A stretch of DNA of 64,000 nt. It comes from a bacterium. GTDB taxonomy: Bacteria; Zhuqueibacterota; Zhuqueibacteria; Residuimicrobiales; Krinioviventaceae. The DNA lies in contig JAKQIY010000065.1 in assembly GCA_029561455.1 (NCBI GenBank), positions 149,501 to 213,500 on the forward strand, read 5' to 3'. Shown in pieces: positions 14,439 to 31,225 of the stretch. The position numbers and the translations under genes were made by a program. The notes beneath the pieces are model-generated. The model was given only the letters and a program-made list of their open reading frames with translations, was not told the origin of the DNA and made no database searches. The first letter of the stretch is position 1. Each line of letters begins with the position of its first letter.

Positions 14439-16796
14439 ATGAAAATTTTGTTTACAGTTCTACTAGTCATTCTGGTTATTTTCAATTCAACATCCCAGGC
14501 ATTTGATAAAAGTGATTACGATATTACCGAATCTCAGGGCTTGTTAAAAACTACCACAACAGCGATTTCAAATTACGGCAGCCACCTGGCAACAACTGCC
14601 AAGTTGGAATACAGTCTCATCACCGGCGGCTATTTCACTATTGGTACACTCTCCGGTTCATCCACTTCCACTCTGGATGATAACTGCGGTATCTCCTTTG
14701 GCCATCCCTACGCCATGACCTCTTATCCCCTGCTGGGCATCGACGGCGCCTGGGAGAAATTCGATATCCTTCACTCCCCGCTTGGCGATCTGTCTCCGCA
14801 AAAAAACCAGGATACCCTGCGCGTGCGCTTTACTCACAATGCCGTTCTGGTCGATTTCCTGATCGCTCCCGCCCAGTCCGGAGCCGCTCTGCAACTGGCG
14901 CTCACCATGAAAAATACCGACACCCAAAATCACTCCTGCGGCGGCGCCATTGTGTTCGACCCGGCGCTGGGCCGTAATGGCGACGGCGCCTTGTTTGTCA
15001 ATGAGCAACCCCTCGCTGTCGAATCGGTTCTGTCCGGCGCCGGCCTCAATTCTTCGCTAGCTGTATATGAACGGAACTCGCTTGCCAAAGGGATGGGCGT
15101 TTCCCTCTCCCTGCCCGACCAGCCCAGTCGCCTCATTGCCGCCAACTGGCCCGATATTTTGAACAACCCATCACATCAACATACAATCACACAAGCAAAA
15201 CATCTCTACGACCTGGTTCTGAAACTGGTCTGGGATGAAATCACTATGACACCGGGGCAGACAAGGTCTCTCTCTGCAACCATCGCCCTTGCAGAAGCGG
15301 ATTTTTCCGCCCCGGTCTTTTTACGTTCGAATTTACCCAACGCGCTTACTCTCAGCAATAATGTGCTGTTCCCCAAAGACCTCACCGGCACACTCCAGTG
15401 TATCAACACCGCTCATAATAATTATAATAACGCCCGGCTGTTGTTTGACAGTCCCTATGAAGTATATGCCGAAGCGGAATTTGTTGATCTTACCATTCCC
15501 GCCGCCGGGCTCTCTACGCCGCTTGAACTGCACAGCCGCGAAATTTATGAAGAAAAAATTGTCAAATTCTGCATTATCTGTACCCATAACGGCGCCGTGC
15601 TGGATAGTCTTTCCCGGTATATCTATATTCCCGCCACCCCGGTTTCCGATACCGGACTGCTGGTTACTATCGATTCTCTGGATATTACCAACTATCCAAA
15701 CGTCAACATCATCTTTAGCAGCGAAATCGAAGAAACCGGCCAAAAGCTGTTAAACCTGCGCCGGGAGAATGTATTACTATATCAAAACATGACTCCCATA
15801 TCCAGGTTTACCTTTGCCAAAGATACCACCGGGGGAGTTAGCGCCGCCGATATTATTTTTGTACTGGATGTAACCGGAAGTATGGGAAATATCATCAATG
15901 CCGTTAAAAATAATATCATAGAATTTGCCGATAGCCTGTCGCAAAGGAATGTCGATTATCGTCTGGCTATGGTTACTTTTCTTGACATAATTGAAAATGC
16001 TTATCCGTTTACCAGCAATGTTAATGATTTTAAGAACCTGGTTGCCCAGCAGAACGCGCATGGCGGCGGCGACGCACCGGAAAATTCGTTAGACGCCCTG
16101 CTGAGAGCTTCGCAATATGATTTCAGAGTAAACGCCAAAAAGATCATTATTTGGCTCACGGATGTTAATTATCATATTGCCGATAATGTAACGTCGCAAA
16201 CCATTCAGCAGGTGGTCAACGCTTTATTAGAAAAAGAGTTGCTGGTTCATGCCATCGGGCCGGAATCGTATAAACAGCAGTACTATGATCCCTTTACCAT
16301 GGCTACCGGCGGTAATTATTATAACATCTATGGTAATTTCCGTGATATTCTGTTAGATATATCCCGTATAAAAACCCAGGATCGCTACCTGGTTTCATAT
16401 AAAAGAGACCAATATAATACATTACCCGAAAATCAGGTTATGGTTAAAGTCCGTTATGCAGGACTGGGTGGGGAAGCTTCGATTATCTATTATCTTCTTG
16501 ACATTATGTCTCCAGGTAAATCCCTGGTTTGTTATCCTAATCCCTTCAACCCGGAAGTCAAGATCACAATTAATAATCAAATGAATGGAAAAGGCCAGGT
16601 ATCAATTTATAACCTGCTGGGGCAGAGGATAAAGAATTTTGAATTGCACAACAATAGGCCACAGCAAATTCTCTGGAACGCCCGCGATGAACAGGGCTTG
16701 GCGGTCAGTAGTGGATTATATATTGTGCAATTGGAATTGCATAATAAAAACGGCCAGGTGGTTCGCGAATCACAAAAAATTATGTTTCTGAAATAA
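14439..16796 (+). CDS. Secreted VWA-domain protein with type IX sorting domain (paralogue 1)
   Basis: A 785-residue exported protein. Residues 1-21 form a signal peptide. Residues 45-413 form a large beta-rich domain I do not recognise, nearly identical to the same part of the next gene. A von Willebrand factor A domain spans about residues 470-655, with the metal-binding MIDAS motif DVTGSMG. The last 80 residues are a Por sorting domain (CYPNPFNPEV). VWA domains bind ligands through a divalent metal, so it is probably a cell-surface or secreted binding or assembly protein. GGAGG lies 4-5 bp before the ATG. It is followed by its paralogue after about 20 bp and heads a four-gene operon of VWA-type cargo. 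Confidence 0.87.
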   Translation: MKILFTVLLVILVIFNSTSQAFDKSDYDITESQGLLKTTTTAISNYGSHLATTAKLEYSLITGGYFTIGTLSGSSTSTLDDNCGISFGHPYAMTSYPLLGIDGAWEKFDILHSPLGDLSPQKNQDTLRVRFTHNAVLVDFLIAPAQSGAALQLALTMKNTDTQNHSCGGAIVFDPALGRNGDGALFVNEQPLAVESVLSGAGLNSSLAVYERNSLAKGMGVSLSLPDQPSRLIAANWPDILNNPSHQHTITQAKHLYDLVLKLVWDEITMTPGQTRSLSATIALAEADFSAPVFLRSNLPNALTLSNNVLFPKDLTGTLQCINTAHNNYNNARLLFDSPYEVYAEAEFVDLTIPAAGLSTPLELHSREIYEEKIVKFCIICTHNGAVLDSLSRYIYIPATPVSDTGLLVTIDSLDITNYPNVNIIFSSEIEETGQKLLNLRRENVLLYQNMTPISRFTFAKDTTGGVSAADIIFVLDVTGSMGNIINAVKNNIIEFADSLSQRNVDYRLAMVTFLDIIENAYPFTSNVNDFKNLVAQQNAHGGGDAPENSLDALLRASQYDFRVNAKKIIIWLTDVNYHIADNVTSQTIQQVVNALLEKELLVHAIGPESYKQQYYDPFTMATGGNYYNIYGNFRDILLDISRIKTQDRYLVSYKRDQYNTLPENQVMVKVRYAGLGGEASIIYYLLDIMSPGKSLVCYPNPFNPEVKITINNQMNGKGQVSIYNLLGQRIKNFELHNNRPQQILWNARDEQGLAVSSGLYIVQLELHNKNGQVVRESQKIMFLK
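14571..15677 (+). repeat. Long direct repeat, copy 1
   Basis: A 1107-bp block inside VWA paralogue 1 that aligns without gaps to 16949-18055 at a constant offset of 2378 bp. The two translations differ at about 12 of 369 residues by hand count. Sequence on either side is clearly less similar. Confidence 0.9.
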
Positions 16797-16816
16797 TTAT
16801 GACGGGAGGAATGACA

Positions 16817-19150
16817 ATGAAACGAATCGCTTGGATTGCTCTAGCTTTAATTCTTTATTTTCACCCGGTATTAGCGTTGGACAAAGACGACTTTGATCTC
16901 CAGGAACAACAAGGATTATTAAAATCCGTTACAACATCTTCAATTGCCAATTACGGCAGCCACCTGGCAACAACCGAAAAGTTGGAATACAGTCTCATCA
17001 CCGGCGGCTATTTCACTATTGGTACGCTCTCAGGTTCATCCACCTCCACTCTGGATGACAACTGCGGTATCTCCTTTGGTCATCCCTACGCCATGACCTC
17101 TTATCCCCTGCTGGGCATCGACGGCGCCTGGGAGAAATTCGATATTCTTCACTCCCCGCTCGGCGATCTGTCTCCCCAGAAAAACCAGGATACCCTGCGC
17201 GTGCGCTTTACTCACAATGCCGTTCTGGTCGATTTCCTGATCGCTCCCGCCCAGTCCGGAGCCGCTCTGCAACTGGCACTCACCATGAAAAATACCGACA
17301 CCCAAAATCACTCCTGCGGCGGCGCCATTGTGTTCGACCCGGCGCTGGGCCGCAATGGCGACGGTGCCTTGTTTGTCAATGAGCAACCCCTCGCCGTCGA
17401 ATCGGTTCTGTCCGGCGCTGGCCTCAATTCTTCGCTAGCTGTATATGAACGGAACTCGCTTGCCAAAGGGATGGGCGTTTCCCTCTCCCTGCCCGACAAG
17501 CCCAGCCGACTCATTGCCGCCAACTGGCCCGATATTTTGAACAACTCTACACCTCAACATACTATCACACAAGCAAAGCATCTCTACGACCTGGTTCTGA
17601 AACTGGTCTGGGATGAAATCACTATGACACCGGGGCAGACAAGGTCTCTCTCCGCAACCATCGCCCTTGCAGAAGCGGATTTTTCCGCCCCGGTCTTTTT
17701 ACGCTGGAATTTGCCTACTGCTCTGACGCTCAGCAATAATGTGCTGTTCCCCAAAGACCTGACCGGCGCGCTCCAGTGCATCAACACCACTCATAACAAC
17801 TATAATAATGCCCGACTGTTGTTTGACAGTCCCTATGAAGTATATACCGATGCGGAATTTGTTGATCTTACCATTCCCGCCGCCGGGCTTTATACGCCGC
17901 TTGAACTGCACAGCCGCGAAATTTATGAAGAAAAAATTGTCAAATTCTGCATTATCTGTACCCATAACGGTGCCGTGCTGGATAGTCTTTCCCGGTATAT
18001 CTATATTCCCGCTACCCCGGTTTCCGATACCGGACTGCTGGTTACTATCGATTCTTTGATCACCTCTTCTTACCCGGATGTTAATATTATCTTTAGTGGG
18101 GAGGTGGAGGAAACCGGCCAAAAACTTTTAAACCTGCGTAAGGAAAATATTTTTCTATATGAAAACAATAGCAGAATTTTAAGCTATGACCTGGAAAAAT
18201 TCCAGGGAGGGGGCTCAGCATTAGCAGATATAGTATTTGTTCTTGATGTAAGTGGCAGTATGGGAGATGAAATTAACCAGGTTCGTAATTATCTGGGTGA
18301 ATTTGCCGATAGTCTTGTTGCCCGGGATTTTGATTATCAAATTGGAGTAGTGACGTTCAGTACTACAATTGATCTGGTAATAGATATGACTAAAGATATT
18401 AACTTTATTAAAACCAAACTCAGTCAAATAAACTTATGGGGTGGTGTTGAAGATTCACCTGCCGCTTTATATCGCGCCACCCAATTATCACTTCGACCGG
18501 GTAGTAAACGAAATATAATATGGGTAACAGACGAAGAATACCCGGAAACAAGTTATACTAAAACACAAATAGTTAACAGAATGTTGGAAATGGATTTTAG
18601 AGTACATGGAGTCGGACCCTTGTATTTACAGACAACCTGGTTCAATCCCATTGTATTACCTACTGGTGGTAATTTTTATGACATAACCGGGAATTTCAGA
18701 GATATACTTTTGGATGTCAGTCGTATGAAAGTTCAGGATAAATACAGCTTAACCTACAAAAGTCCTGGTAATATTGGCGCCAATACAATTCGGCTACAAA
18801 TTCATTATGCCGGTTTAGGTGGTGAAACGACAACAAGTTATTCTGTACCAACTTTTAGCCGAATTGCAAATGCCTTGGTTTGTTACCCCAACCCCTTTAA
18901 TCCTGAGGTTAAGATTAATATTAACGCGTCGCAAGAAAGTGTTGGCCAAGTGGGTATATATAACCTGTTGGGGCAAAAAATTAGACAATATGAATTATAT
19001 AAAAATTCTCCGCGCCAAATAATCTGGAATGCCAGCGATGAACAGGGTTTACCGGTTAGCAGCGGAGTGTATATTGTTCTGTTGGAATTACATGATAAAG
19101 ATGGTAATAAAGTCAGTCGTGAATCACAAAAAATATTATACTTAAAGTAA
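16817..19150 (+). CDS. Secreted VWA-domain protein with type IX sorting domain (paralogue 2)
   Basis: About 777 residues, with the same architecture as the preceding gene: signal peptide, unknown domain (residues 45-413), VWA domain with intact MIDAS DVSGSMG, and a Por sorting domain (CYPNPFNPEV). I choose the ATG at 16817 because GGGAGGA lies 6 bp upstream; the ATGs at 16799 and 16811 lie before or touch that site. The N-terminal domain is about 97% identical to paralogue 1, while the VWA domain has diverged strongly. The two may therefore share a partner through the N-domain and bind different ligands through the VWA domain. Confidence 0.87.
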   Translation: MKRIAWIALALILYFHPVLALDKDDFDLQEQQGLLKSVTTSSIANYGSHLATTEKLEYSLITGGYFTIGTLSGSSTSTLDDNCGISFGHPYAMTSYPLLGIDGAWEKFDILHSPLGDLSPQKNQDTLRVRFTHNAVLVDFLIAPAQSGAALQLALTMKNTDTQNHSCGGAIVFDPALGRNGDGALFVNEQPLAVESVLSGAGLNSSLAVYERNSLAKGMGVSLSLPDKPSRLIAANWPDILNNSTPQHTITQAKHLYDLVLKLVWDEITMTPGQTRSLSATIALAEADFSAPVFLRWNLPTALTLSNNVLFPKDLTGALQCINTTHNNYNNARLLFDSPYEVYTDAEFVDLTIPAAGLYTPLELHSREIYEEKIVKFCIICTHNGAVLDSLSRYIYIPATPVSDTGLLVTIDSLITSSYPDVNIIFSGEVEETGQKLLNLRKENIFLYENNSRILSYDLEKFQGGGSALADIVFVLDVSGSMGDEINQVRNYLGEFADSLVARDFDYQIGVVTFSTTIDLVIDMTKDINFIKTKLSQINLWGGVEDSPAALYRATQLSLRPGSKRNIIWVTDEEYPETSYTKTQIVNRMLEMDFRVHGVGPLYLQTTWFNPIVLPTGGNFYDITGNFRDILLDVSRMKVQDKYSLTYKSPGNIGANTIRLQIHYAGLGGETTTSYSVPTFSRIANALVCYPNPFNPEVKININASQESVGQVGIYNLLGQKIRQYELYKNSPRQIIWNASDEQGLPVSSGVYIVLLELHDKDGNKVSRESQKILYLK
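16949..18055 (+). repeat. Long direct repeat, copy 2
   Basis: The second copy of the 1107-bp block, inside VWA paralogue 2. It starts at the same codon position (residue 45) as copy 1 and ends at the same codon (residue 413). Confidence 0.9.
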
Positions 19151-27602: not shown

Positions 27603-29990
27603 TTAATGCCTGCCATTTTTTGCGTCAAGATTGAACTTGGCCAGTAATTCTTTTTCTCCTTTGGCCATATTTAAAAACATATTGGAAAGAAGTGTTACAT
27701 GCTCCAGTTGCGCACTCATAGTTTGCGTCGAGGCGGAAACCTCTTCCACGCCGGCGGCGTTGCGTTGACTGATATCGGCGACCTGTTCCATTGCATTACC
27801 AACCTGATTGGAAAGGTTCTGCATATCTGCGCTGGCGACTGTAATATCGTGGATACGATCCTGATCCTGAAGCACAGATTGTTTGATCTTTTCAAAAGTT
27901 TTCTTGACTTCATCGGTAAGCCCGGAAATATTATCAAATTTTTGCAGATCATCATCCATCAATTTATTCACTTTATTTATTTCGGATAATATCGTCTGCA
28001 CCACTTTTTCCACATCTTTGGTGGCATTAGCGGTATTATTGGCCAGGTTGCGGATTTCATTGGCCACAACCATAAAACCTTTACCATACTCGCCGGCGCG
28101 CGCCGCTTCGATTGAGGCGTTCAGCGACAACAGGTTCACCTGGAAGGCTATATCATTGATCATTTTTAAAATGCCATTGATCTTACTGGAATGTTTTTCC
28201 AATTCTTCCACGATACGCCAGGTTTCACCAAATGATGAGCGAATGACATCGATACTGCTCAGAGTATTTTCCAGAATCTGCGAGCCGGAATGAATTGCTC
28301 TAGTCGTATCTTCTACCGCATCAGCGCTGTCTCTGGCTTTTTCCGTCACTGTATCGATATTCTGCAATAATGAGATCAGGGTATTCCGGGTCAGGTTAAC
28401 CTGGTCGTTCTGCTGCATGGTATCTTGCGCCATTTCAAACATAGATGAACTGATCTCCTTGGTTGCAACATTAACTTCTTCGGCGCTGCTGCTTAAACTC
28501 TTGCTTGATTGAAGTAAATTATTGGACTGATCATAAATTGTTTTGACAAGACTACGCAGACTGGTTGGTTCGCTGTTGGCGGTAATAACCGGAATTCCGT
28601 TTTGCACCGCACGGTTGATATATGGCACCAGGTTGCGATCTACAGATACCAGCGCCAGACCGTTGTATCGTTTGCTGATAACCTCTTCAACCGCCGGGCC
28701 ATAAACAGCGGCGCTGAAATCTTTTTTAGTGCGTGTTCCCTCTGGAACAATCCAATCCACTATTACATTCTTATTTCGTAAGACAGAGGCGGCATCGAGC
28801 ACCCCTTTTTTTACCGGCGCCCAGAAAGCGGAATCCTCACGACCCAGCACCGCTATCTTTATCTGGCGATCCGGTGTTTTTTGCACCGGTTTCGCCAAAT
28901 GTTCCAGGCTTTCACGGGACTGGATCATGCCGACGCCTTCACGCCAGAATTGTTCATAATTTTCTTTATTAACTACATCCATTCTGGTCAGCAAGCGCGG
29001 GGAAACCGGATGCCAGTTATCGACAATGGTATTGTAAAGATGAATGACCGGATCATACCCCTGGGCATAAGGATCTTGTCCCAATGTGCCGGAAATTACA
29101 CCCTTTTTAATATTGACCATTGTGTCATTGGTCAAATCATGACCGACAATTTTTATCATTCCGGCTTTACCCGCATCACTAACCGCCTGTGCAACTCCGC
29201 CAGGTGTGGCGCCCTCGGTTACATAAATACCGACCAGGTCCGGGTGTTTTTTTATACCTTCAGAAATCAGTGTATATGCCAAACCGGTATCTTCATGATT
29301 TTCCAGAACATCGACAATCTGCATGGAACTGTGCTTTTCAGCAAGATAACTCATAAATCCCTTACGCCGCAATTCCAATCCTGATGAGGTAAAAGAGCCG
29401 GTTGTAACTAAAATTTTTCCCTTGCCGCCCAAAAGTCCATCAAGCACTTCGCCGGCTTTACGCCCTTCCAGGAACGAATCGGCGCCCACATAACATAACC
29501 GCAGGCAATGAATATCGGTCAGTTTGTTGAACTCATCAGCAGCATTATGCAGACTGTTGATTATAATATTCAGCGCATCAATGGCGGGATTCAATTCCTC
29601 ATATTGCGAACGCGGCAGCGGTGTTGACTTTATATCCAGGTGTACCGATAAATTACCTTGCGCCAGTTCGGCCATGGCGGTTGTAAATTCCTGGCTGTCA
29701 TGACTGACTGTGGCACTGTCGAACCGGATAATCCGGTTACGCAATTCTTCCTGATATCCTTTACCTAGTAGAGCAAAAAAGATCAACAGACAAGTCATTA
29801 CAAAAAACCCACTGACCAACAGCAGGCCGGGTAACAGACGGGAAGACCCATCAACAACATCTGTTGCAGAGGGTGAGGAGAATACCAAAACGATCCCCGT
29901 CAATGCAAGGCATACGGCCAGGATCACCAATCCATATATTGCAGCTAAATTTTTCTCATTCCGTGCAAATGAAAGCAGTTTTCGTAACAT
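27603..29990 (-). CDS. Methyl-accepting chemotaxis protein with internal, apparently permuted periplasmic-binding-protein-like domain
   Basis: A 795-residue chemoreceptor. Two membrane helices (about 16-37 and 52-75) are separated by only about 14 residues, so there is almost no periplasmic domain. A HAMP-like segment follows (about 76-140). Residues about 160-350 match the C-terminal lobe of LacI/ribose-binding-type proteins ([15 protein letters not shown], then GHDLTND, ending at [12 protein letters not shown]). Residues about 375-478 match the N-terminal lobe ([14 protein letters not shown] ... [11 protein letters not shown]). The lobes are thus in reversed order and placed on the cytoplasmic side. 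Residues about 485-790 are the signalling domain with tip [20 protein letters not shown]. It probably senses a cytoplasmic sugar-like ligand. Confidence 0.9.
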
Positions 29991-30627
29991 AATGAGTTCC
30001 TTTTATTTATAAAACATGCTCCTTTTTTCATACAGAAAAGATACCAACATAATAAAAAACAGATATTGCTAATATAATTGAAAAAATTGTCAGGTTATTA
30101 ATAATACCTGCTTGAACATTACGCGGCTACACTTAAATAATTGATCGACAAAAATTAAAATAAACAGATTCCATAATGGATAATAAAGGAAGAGGTATAA
30201 TAGTAATAAATGATCTAGATAGATATAGGCAATAAATCATATCCGGGTATCCAGGTACTAACATAATAATGAAAAATAACTTGTATTCATTTGTCATGGC
30301 CAATTTAAATGATTAAATGACCGTACAAAATTGACGTTGCAAATTTTACACCAGCAACAATAAAAAACAAAGGGATACGATGTGCCAAAAAGTTACTGTT
30401 TCGTTTAAATATCTTCAATAAAACGGAATAATTTACGCGAATGCTGCCTATAAAAAATTATTGCGTACAATCAACCCTCAGGGTGTTGCCCTCGCTTCCC
30501 GGCATTGGGACATAATTTCCCTGGTTGCCCTGTTACAGTGAAAAAAACGTTCGAGGCATTGTAAAATGATTTCTAATTGTCAGCTCTCAGGTACAGAGTG
30601 GATTTTCAGACCAACTCTTTAAAACAT
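29991..30627. other. AT-rich gene-free region
   Basis: Left half of a 1.2-kb gap. It must hold the promoter of the chemoreceptor gene (AAGGA lies 7 bp before its ATG). I see no convincing gene. Short open frames here and to the right have no ribosome-binding site or family features. Confidence 0.5.
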
Positions 30628-31005
30628 CGGGAACGCCCGTGGGTTAGGTATGTAGTACCGGCTTTCACCGACTGTATAAAACAGCCCAAGGCCGGACTAT
30701 TAACGAAATGCAATTCCGCCACTAACGTGGCTTTTTATGTGGGTAAGGTAGTGCTATAAACATTTCACCCCTAACGGGGTTTAGATTTGATCGCGCCGGT
30801 TATTCAGCAGGTGCTTATGATTATACCGGACATTCATCTGGGTAACTCTGTCAGGTTTCAGATCCCGCCGGGGTTATACCCCGGTGCGTATAATTATGTG
30901 AGGGCTACGCTCTCACAGGTGCAAATTTCATATAGAATAACAGGAAGGAAACAGGGGCACAGCCCCTGTTTTTTGCCCGACCCAGGGCACAACCCCGGGT
31001 CGGGC
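30628..31005. repeat. Array of short palindromic hairpins
   Basis: Seven short inverted repeats in about 380 bp, most with 3-4-base loops: 30628-30639 (CGGG/CCCG), 30718-30731 (GCCAC-TAAC-GTGGC), 30767-30780 (ACCCC-TAAC-GGGGT), 30868-30884 (CCGGGGT-TAT-ACCCCGG), 30898-30916 (GTGAGGGC-TAC-GCTCTCAC, one G-T pair), 30951-30969 (ACAGGGGC-ACA-GCCCCTGT, then a T run), and 30975-31005 (GCCCGACCC / GGGTCGGGC). The sixth could also act as a terminator. Different stems with similar loops suggest REP-like elements. Confidence 0.75.
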
Positions 31006-31083
31006 TATGTATGTAATACCCGCGTTAGCCGGTTACACAAAGACCGCCAAAAGGCAAGTCTTTAAGTAAATATCAGTTATCCT

Positions 31084-31218
31084 GCCCGGCGACTGACGAC
31101 TGACGACTGACGGCTGACAACTGATAGTTAATAGCTGAAAGCTTTCGTCTCACGTTTGACGTTTCACATCTTACGTTTCACATCTCACATTCCACTTTCC
31201 ATTCGTCATTCGTAATTG
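31084..31218 (+). repeat. Heptamer-like tandem repeats
   Basis: GACTGAC/CTGACGA units repeated, then CTGACAACTGATAG, then TTTCACATC/TTACG units, then ATTCGTCATTCGTAATT. These are the same word families as at 24250-24345, on the same strand. No gene is supported. Confidence 0.65.
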
Positions 31219-31225
31219 ACCAAAA

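Follow-up and report, generated by a model that had tools for sequence, protein, structure and literature searches.

The window, a stretch of 64,000 nucleotides of bacterial DNA, carries a chemoreceptor gene whose product combines, in this order, a hairpin of transmembrane (TM) helices, a HAMP segment, a permuted type I PBP module and an MCP signalling domain. The coordinates of these features, together with the evidence used to place them, are given in Table 1.

Table 1 Features of the receptor gene (positions in the window; residues of the encoded protein).
Feature	Residues	Position	Strand	Evidence
Whole receptor gene	795 aa	27603..29990	(-)	ORF, Pfam, 16-member alignment
Predicted TM helix 1	18-36	29883..29939	(-)	Kyte-Doolittle peak 2.77; N-terminus positively charged
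Predicted TM helix 2	56-74	29769..29825	(-)	Kyte-Doolittle peak 2.69
Divergent HAMP	~76-146	29553..29765	(-)	PF00672 in 7/16 members, best E 7.3e-8
Gap-free entry junction, HAMP to C-lobe	146-168	29487..29555	(-)	No indel in the 15 members with this region; 50% mean pairwise identity
C-lobe (R208, H284, D285, Q305, Q310, N320, W326)	160-345	28956..29513	(-)	PF13407 profile 93-247; 2QVC 98-260; residue conservation
Linker, old C-terminus to old N-terminus	346-376	28863..28955	(-)	30-31 residues in every complete phylum member
N-lobe (F389, W390, N472, E474, P475)	377-475	28566..28862	(-)	PF13407 profile 7-95; 2QVC 3-92; conservation
Gap-free exit junction, N-lobe to MCP helix	466-495	28506..28595	(-)	No indel in 15 members; 54% mean pairwise identity
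MCP signalling domain; canonical hairpin tip 595-665	590-740	27771..28223	(-)	PF00015 E 1.9e-39

Membrane topology of the receptor

The original prediction described two close-set membrane helices with a loop of about 14 residues; both helices were recovered, whereas hydropathy gives a loop of about 19 residues. The TM hairpin recurs in nearly all full-length family members, with one TM helix detected in G012_C20 and G630. The Pfam HAMP profile did not reach E 0.1 in the window protein itself. PF00015, on the other side of the module, was matched in all 16 family members of the phylum, and the MCP tip is free of indels in the family alignment (59.5% mean pairwise identity).

A Kyte-Doolittle scan of the window protein revealed no hydrophobic segment after residue 75. 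MCP signalling domains act in the cytoplasm and no membrane helix separates this one from the PBP module; the module is therefore cytoplasmic, as had been proposed, lying after the TM hairpin on the MCP side of the membrane. By this layout, it is neither exported nor lipidated.

Lobe order, cut site and probable pocket of the binding-protein module

PF13407 matched the window protein twice in one frame but in swapped order: residues 162-315 correspond to profile positions 93-247, and residues ~384-479 to positions 7-95 (second match at G000:C84:178054-178341). A phmmer search against PDB aligned residues 164-325 with positions 98-260 of 2QVC, the T. maritima glucose-binding protein (E 3e-27), and residues 377-474 with positions 3-92 of the same chain (i-Evalue 1.1e-3). 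The N-lobe alone as query gave 4.7e-5 against 2QVC, and the family profile matched the whole chain at E 3e-47. Both lobes of one solved PBP are present in exchanged order, the C-lobe ahead of the N-lobe, which is the arrangement originally claimed.

A complete N-lobe was also sought ahead of residue 160, and none was found; that stretch consists of the TM helices and HAMP, so an N-lobe hidden there was rejected. Residues 377-478 fall in the PBP family of the C-lobe, not in another, and no Pfam match to an N-terminal DNA-binding HTH of the LacI family was obtained in the window protein. The canonical order, N-lobe then C-lobe, is absent from all 19 proteins of the family, each of which has it reversed. 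We rejected a chance match, since 15 homologues from the phylum (34-59% identity) are collinear with the window protein over the whole length, and three more from other phyla bring the collinear set to 19 proteins.

We located the cut by a rotation scan, in which L030, L031 and L082, ordinary PBPs of the window's genome and phylum, were each rotated in silico in 4-residue steps and scored with the family profile. The score of L030 rose from 104 bits unrotated to 136 bits with the cut at 'TFDSDAPN|SRRVCYVG', and that of L031 from 112 to 146 bits with the cut at 'PTLTFDSD|SPESQRIA', both matches then running end to end; L082, the third and more distant PBP, gave no rotation peak. For both L030 and L031, the best cut is the end of the N-lobe, just ahead of the C-lobe (the first hinge crossing), and the best rotated match covers the whole module and the whole PBP. 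Such full-length rotated matches indicate that no part of the PBP is missing or doubled and that the break lies at the hinge. The predicted circular permutation with a hinge cut was thereby borne out for two of the three PBPs, and the module was confirmed as a complete type I PBP, circularly permuted and cut at the first lobe-to-lobe crossing.

Residues of the putative pocket are conserved in both lobes. Across the 19 proteins, R208 is present in 19, Q305 in 18, and position 285 is D in 17 and E in 2; in the N-lobe, F389 and N472 are each retained in 17, and position 390 is W in 17 and F in 2. We take F389, W390, N472, R208, D285 and Q305 to be the counterparts of the ribose-binding-protein contacts F15, F16, D89, R141, D215 and Q235, an equivalence drawn by eye from the alignment with the T. 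maritima protein and from general knowledge of RbsB rather than from a structure. Further residues invariant in the 19 proteins are H284, Q310, G311, N320, W326, P328, P416 and N459. Near-invariance of the predicted sugar-contact positions in both lobes makes it likely that the two lobes form one functional pocket.

This conservation also bears on whether the module might be two fused PBP fragments, left by a tandem duplication and no longer forming a binding unit. Permutation by tandem duplication is generally understood to pass through such a state, but here the PBP is complete, without lost or repeated parts, and the pocket positions of both lobes are nearly invariant in 19 proteins from four phyla; we regard such a non-functional remnant as highly improbable and already largely refuted. 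Degenerate half-domains were rejected on the same grounds.

Two AlphaFold runs, with an alignment of the window protein and one homologue only, gave mean pLDDT values of 46.6 and 53.5. These low-confidence models carry secondary structure in the expected permuted beta/alpha order; only their C-lobe superposes on solved PBPs, and they leave the relative placement of the lobes undefined. We infer that the lobes pair within one chain to give a single closed fold. MCPs are established to function as dimers, and a 30-residue linker separates the lobes, so the C-lobe of one subunit might instead close on the N-lobe of the other, with interchain clefts linking dimer geometry to ligand; sequence fits chain-internal and swapped pairing equally. 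We consider such a domain swap improbable, because the linker is of 30-31 residues in every complete phylum member, which is probably enough to bridge the old ends in one chain, and because the known permuted PBP TpMglB-2 is monomeric (PMC4990184). The linker remains recognisably homologous in the G134, G630 and Leptolinea copies.

The junctions that join the module to HAMP and to the MCP helix are both gap-free, in contrast to the TM hairpin and the interior of the N-lobe, which vary in length in the family alignment. Rigid connections of this kind would fit mechanical coupling between module and rod.

Distribution, gene neighbourhoods and signalling output

The search for the same lobe order in other MCPs, suggested with the original prediction, returned 18 homologues sharing the order, the linker and the cut; 15 are from the same phylum (KSB1) and one is from each of three others. 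Within the window's phylum, 10 of 82 genomes carry the receptor, with 16 copies including that of the window. The G134 copy is the single one among 245 genomes of its phylum, another lies in the single-contig genome G630, and a third, annotated only as 'hypothetical protein', is carried by a Leptolinea sp. HRD-7 plasmid (Chloroflexota). Judged by these sequences, the receptor appears to recur in at least four phyla, if G630 is counted as outside the other three. The same arrangement in several phyla points to a real and apparently undescribed family of sensors, and the common order and linker in all members argue for a single permutation event. The G134 copy clusters with those of the window and G037 (SH-aLRT 100 in a quick tree, 97 on the module alone) despite its different phylum, which suggests horizontal transfer. 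No further family members were found in the viral contigs scanned.

The same phylum holds other MCP fusions of ~1,110-1,200 aa (L083:2611-6084(-), L084:3423-7016(-), L085:644-4105(+), L086:1150-4482(+) and L087:3602-7018(-)), in which a periplasmic two-component-regulator propeller and Y_Y_Y part, as in Bacteroides hybrid sensors, is fused to an MCP domain similar to that of the receptor family (Pfam on L083 and L084 only).

Genes near the window copy include those for an SSF sodium:solute symporter, a GHMP kinase bearing the galactokinase signature, an oxidoreductase resembling GH109 and a protein of the GlcNAc 2-epimerase type. The G037 copy adjoins GH97, the G134 copy adjoins GH94, SSF, MFS_2 and GH10, and other copies adjoin GH2, GH3 with sulfatases, or GH31 with GH13; several loci adjoin two-component genes instead of sugar genes. 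Sodium symporters bring free sugar into the cytoplasm. These glycan and sugar neighbourhoods are no more than a hint to the ligand, which is probably an imported sugar.

Two further observations concern gene content. G037 has its GH97 gene (L080:11236-13230(-)) between the receptor and the Gfo/Idh gene, whereas the counterpart in the window (29991-31225) is ~1.2 kb without a long gene. Two neighbouring genes at window positions 14439-19150 (785 and 783 aa) are, by eye, almost the same over the N-terminal half and diverge in the second half, and look like a recent tandem duplication.

The module might instead bind a sugar phosphate, a nucleoside, another metabolite or a protein partner. PF13407 also covers proteins that bind ligands other than sugars, among them the AI-2 proteins LsrB and LuxP (PMC12268683), the receptor family has invariant residues of its own (H284, Q310, N320, W326 and N459), and several loci are without sugar genes. 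However, its best relatives are monosaccharide binders, the core sugar-contact positions are retained, and many loci adjoin glycan genes; we therefore judge a non-sugar ligand unlikely, with perhaps one chance in a few.

CheW-domain proteins and CheR are present in 10 of the 11 host genomes. Flagellin was found only in G000 and G134, so that output elsewhere may be through pili or something else. The exception to the first pattern is G037, of the same genus as the window, in which no CheW, CheR, CheA dimerisation domain, flagellin or second MCP was detected; the receptor is the only MCP-domain protein of this draft genome (~95% complete). The CheA dimerisation domain was also missed in G015, where CheW-domain proteins are present, so its absence alone is not decisive. 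A CheA output cannot hold in G037 unless the assembly misses all of these partners; missing data, recent loss and another partner are all possible.

G037 lends support to a receptor with no chemotaxis output, in which the MCP domain would serve as a scaffold for another partner, for example in control of gene expression or pili. Its tip is still 90% identical to that of the window protein (lobes 62-70%), and flagellin is undetectable in 9 of the 11 hosts. Against this stand the presence of CheW and CheR in nearly every host, the conserved tip, which is what CheA/CheW binding would preserve, and the draft state of the G037 assembly; we find this reading rather unlikely.

We favour, with reasonable confidence, a membrane-anchored chemoreceptor that samples the cytoplasm through a hinge-permuted PBP with one cleft, whose sugar-driven closure is read by CheW/CheA. 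A type I PBP of the T. maritima glucose-binding-protein kind would have undergone one permutation that cut it where the chain first crosses between the lobes, and would have been placed between HAMP and the MCP coiled coil, such that the new module ends, neighbours in an ordinary PBP, would join both helices directly. The two lobes would make one cleft, which would close on binding a small ligand, most probably a mono- or disaccharide imported without phosphorylation. Closure would rearrange the two helices attached at the hinge and, through them, the MCP tip, whose state would be read by CheW/CheA where present. The computed parts of this explanation are the permuted order, cut site, completeness, pocket conservation, lack of a later TM helix, intact MCP tip and recurrence; to these it adds by deduction the closed fold in one chain, the sugar ligand, transmission from hinge to coil and the CheA output. 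More tentatively, and at somewhat short of an even chance, the hinge permutation may be the functional device of a distinct class of intracellular-sugar receptors, setting the module ends side by side so that closure moves the rod helices, perhaps kinase-free in G037.

Comparison with known systems

Receptors for sugar taxis normally sense on the outside of the cell, either through docked PBPs or by binding the sugar directly. If the proposed reading is true, a receptor with its own internal sugar-binding protein would report what was actually imported, and members of this family are probably sensors for imported sugars. HAMP-containing MCPs with cytoplasmic sensors likewise hold sensor and signalling domain on the same side of the membrane, and the known examples rely on PAS, globin or other folds. 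A search of open-access literature for an MCP with a permuted or cytoplasmic PBP found none (weak evidence of absence), the only related catalogue mention being one Peripla_BP_5 LBD cluster (PMC8547431).

The nearest solved relatives of both lobes are the T. maritima glucose-binding protein (2H3H/2QVC) and other CUT2 PBPs, which, unlike the module, have the normal lobe order and are exported. LacI-family regulators also sense sugars in the cytoplasm with a type I PBP fold, but they carry a DNA-binding helix-turn-helix and the normal lobe order, and the module is nearer to the CUT2 PBPs. BT1754-type hybrid two-component sensors (2X7X) similarly fuse a type I PBP into a membrane sugar sensor; in contrast to the receptor, theirs is periplasmic and unpermuted, with a histidine kinase output.

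The closest precedents for the permutation itself are two. TpMglB-2 (Tp0684) of Treponema pallidum, a 'Type Ic' permuted glucose-binding lipoprotein whose fold still closes on glucose (PMC4990184), is, like the module, a circularly permuted type I sugar PBP with a linker between the old termini. However, only its first three N-lobe strands are moved, with the cut inside the N-lobe, whereas the receptor module has the whole N-lobe moved and a hinge cut; moreover, TpMglB-2 is a lipoprotein exported to serve an ABC transporter and not, like the cytoplasmic module here, part of a receptor. The Rhodopirellula sugar-binding protein in PDB 5ER3 aligns with the module in a single stretch from C-lobe through linker to N-lobe, and so appears to be permuted as well, but it is free-standing and cut inside the C-lobe (C-lobe start at chain positions 277-332, rest at 31-125). 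Its permutation is apparent from the sequence; the listed molecule name does not say so.

The arrangement resembles biosensor engineering, where output domains are attached to a binding protein at its hinge, and the receptor offers a testable model for clam-shell closure driving a coiled-coil rod. A circularly permuted sugar-binding protein is in itself not new, given TpMglB-2 (PMC4990184) and PDB 5ER3; what is new here is that the cut falls at the hinge, that the module is cytoplasmic and that it is inserted between HAMP and the MCP domain.
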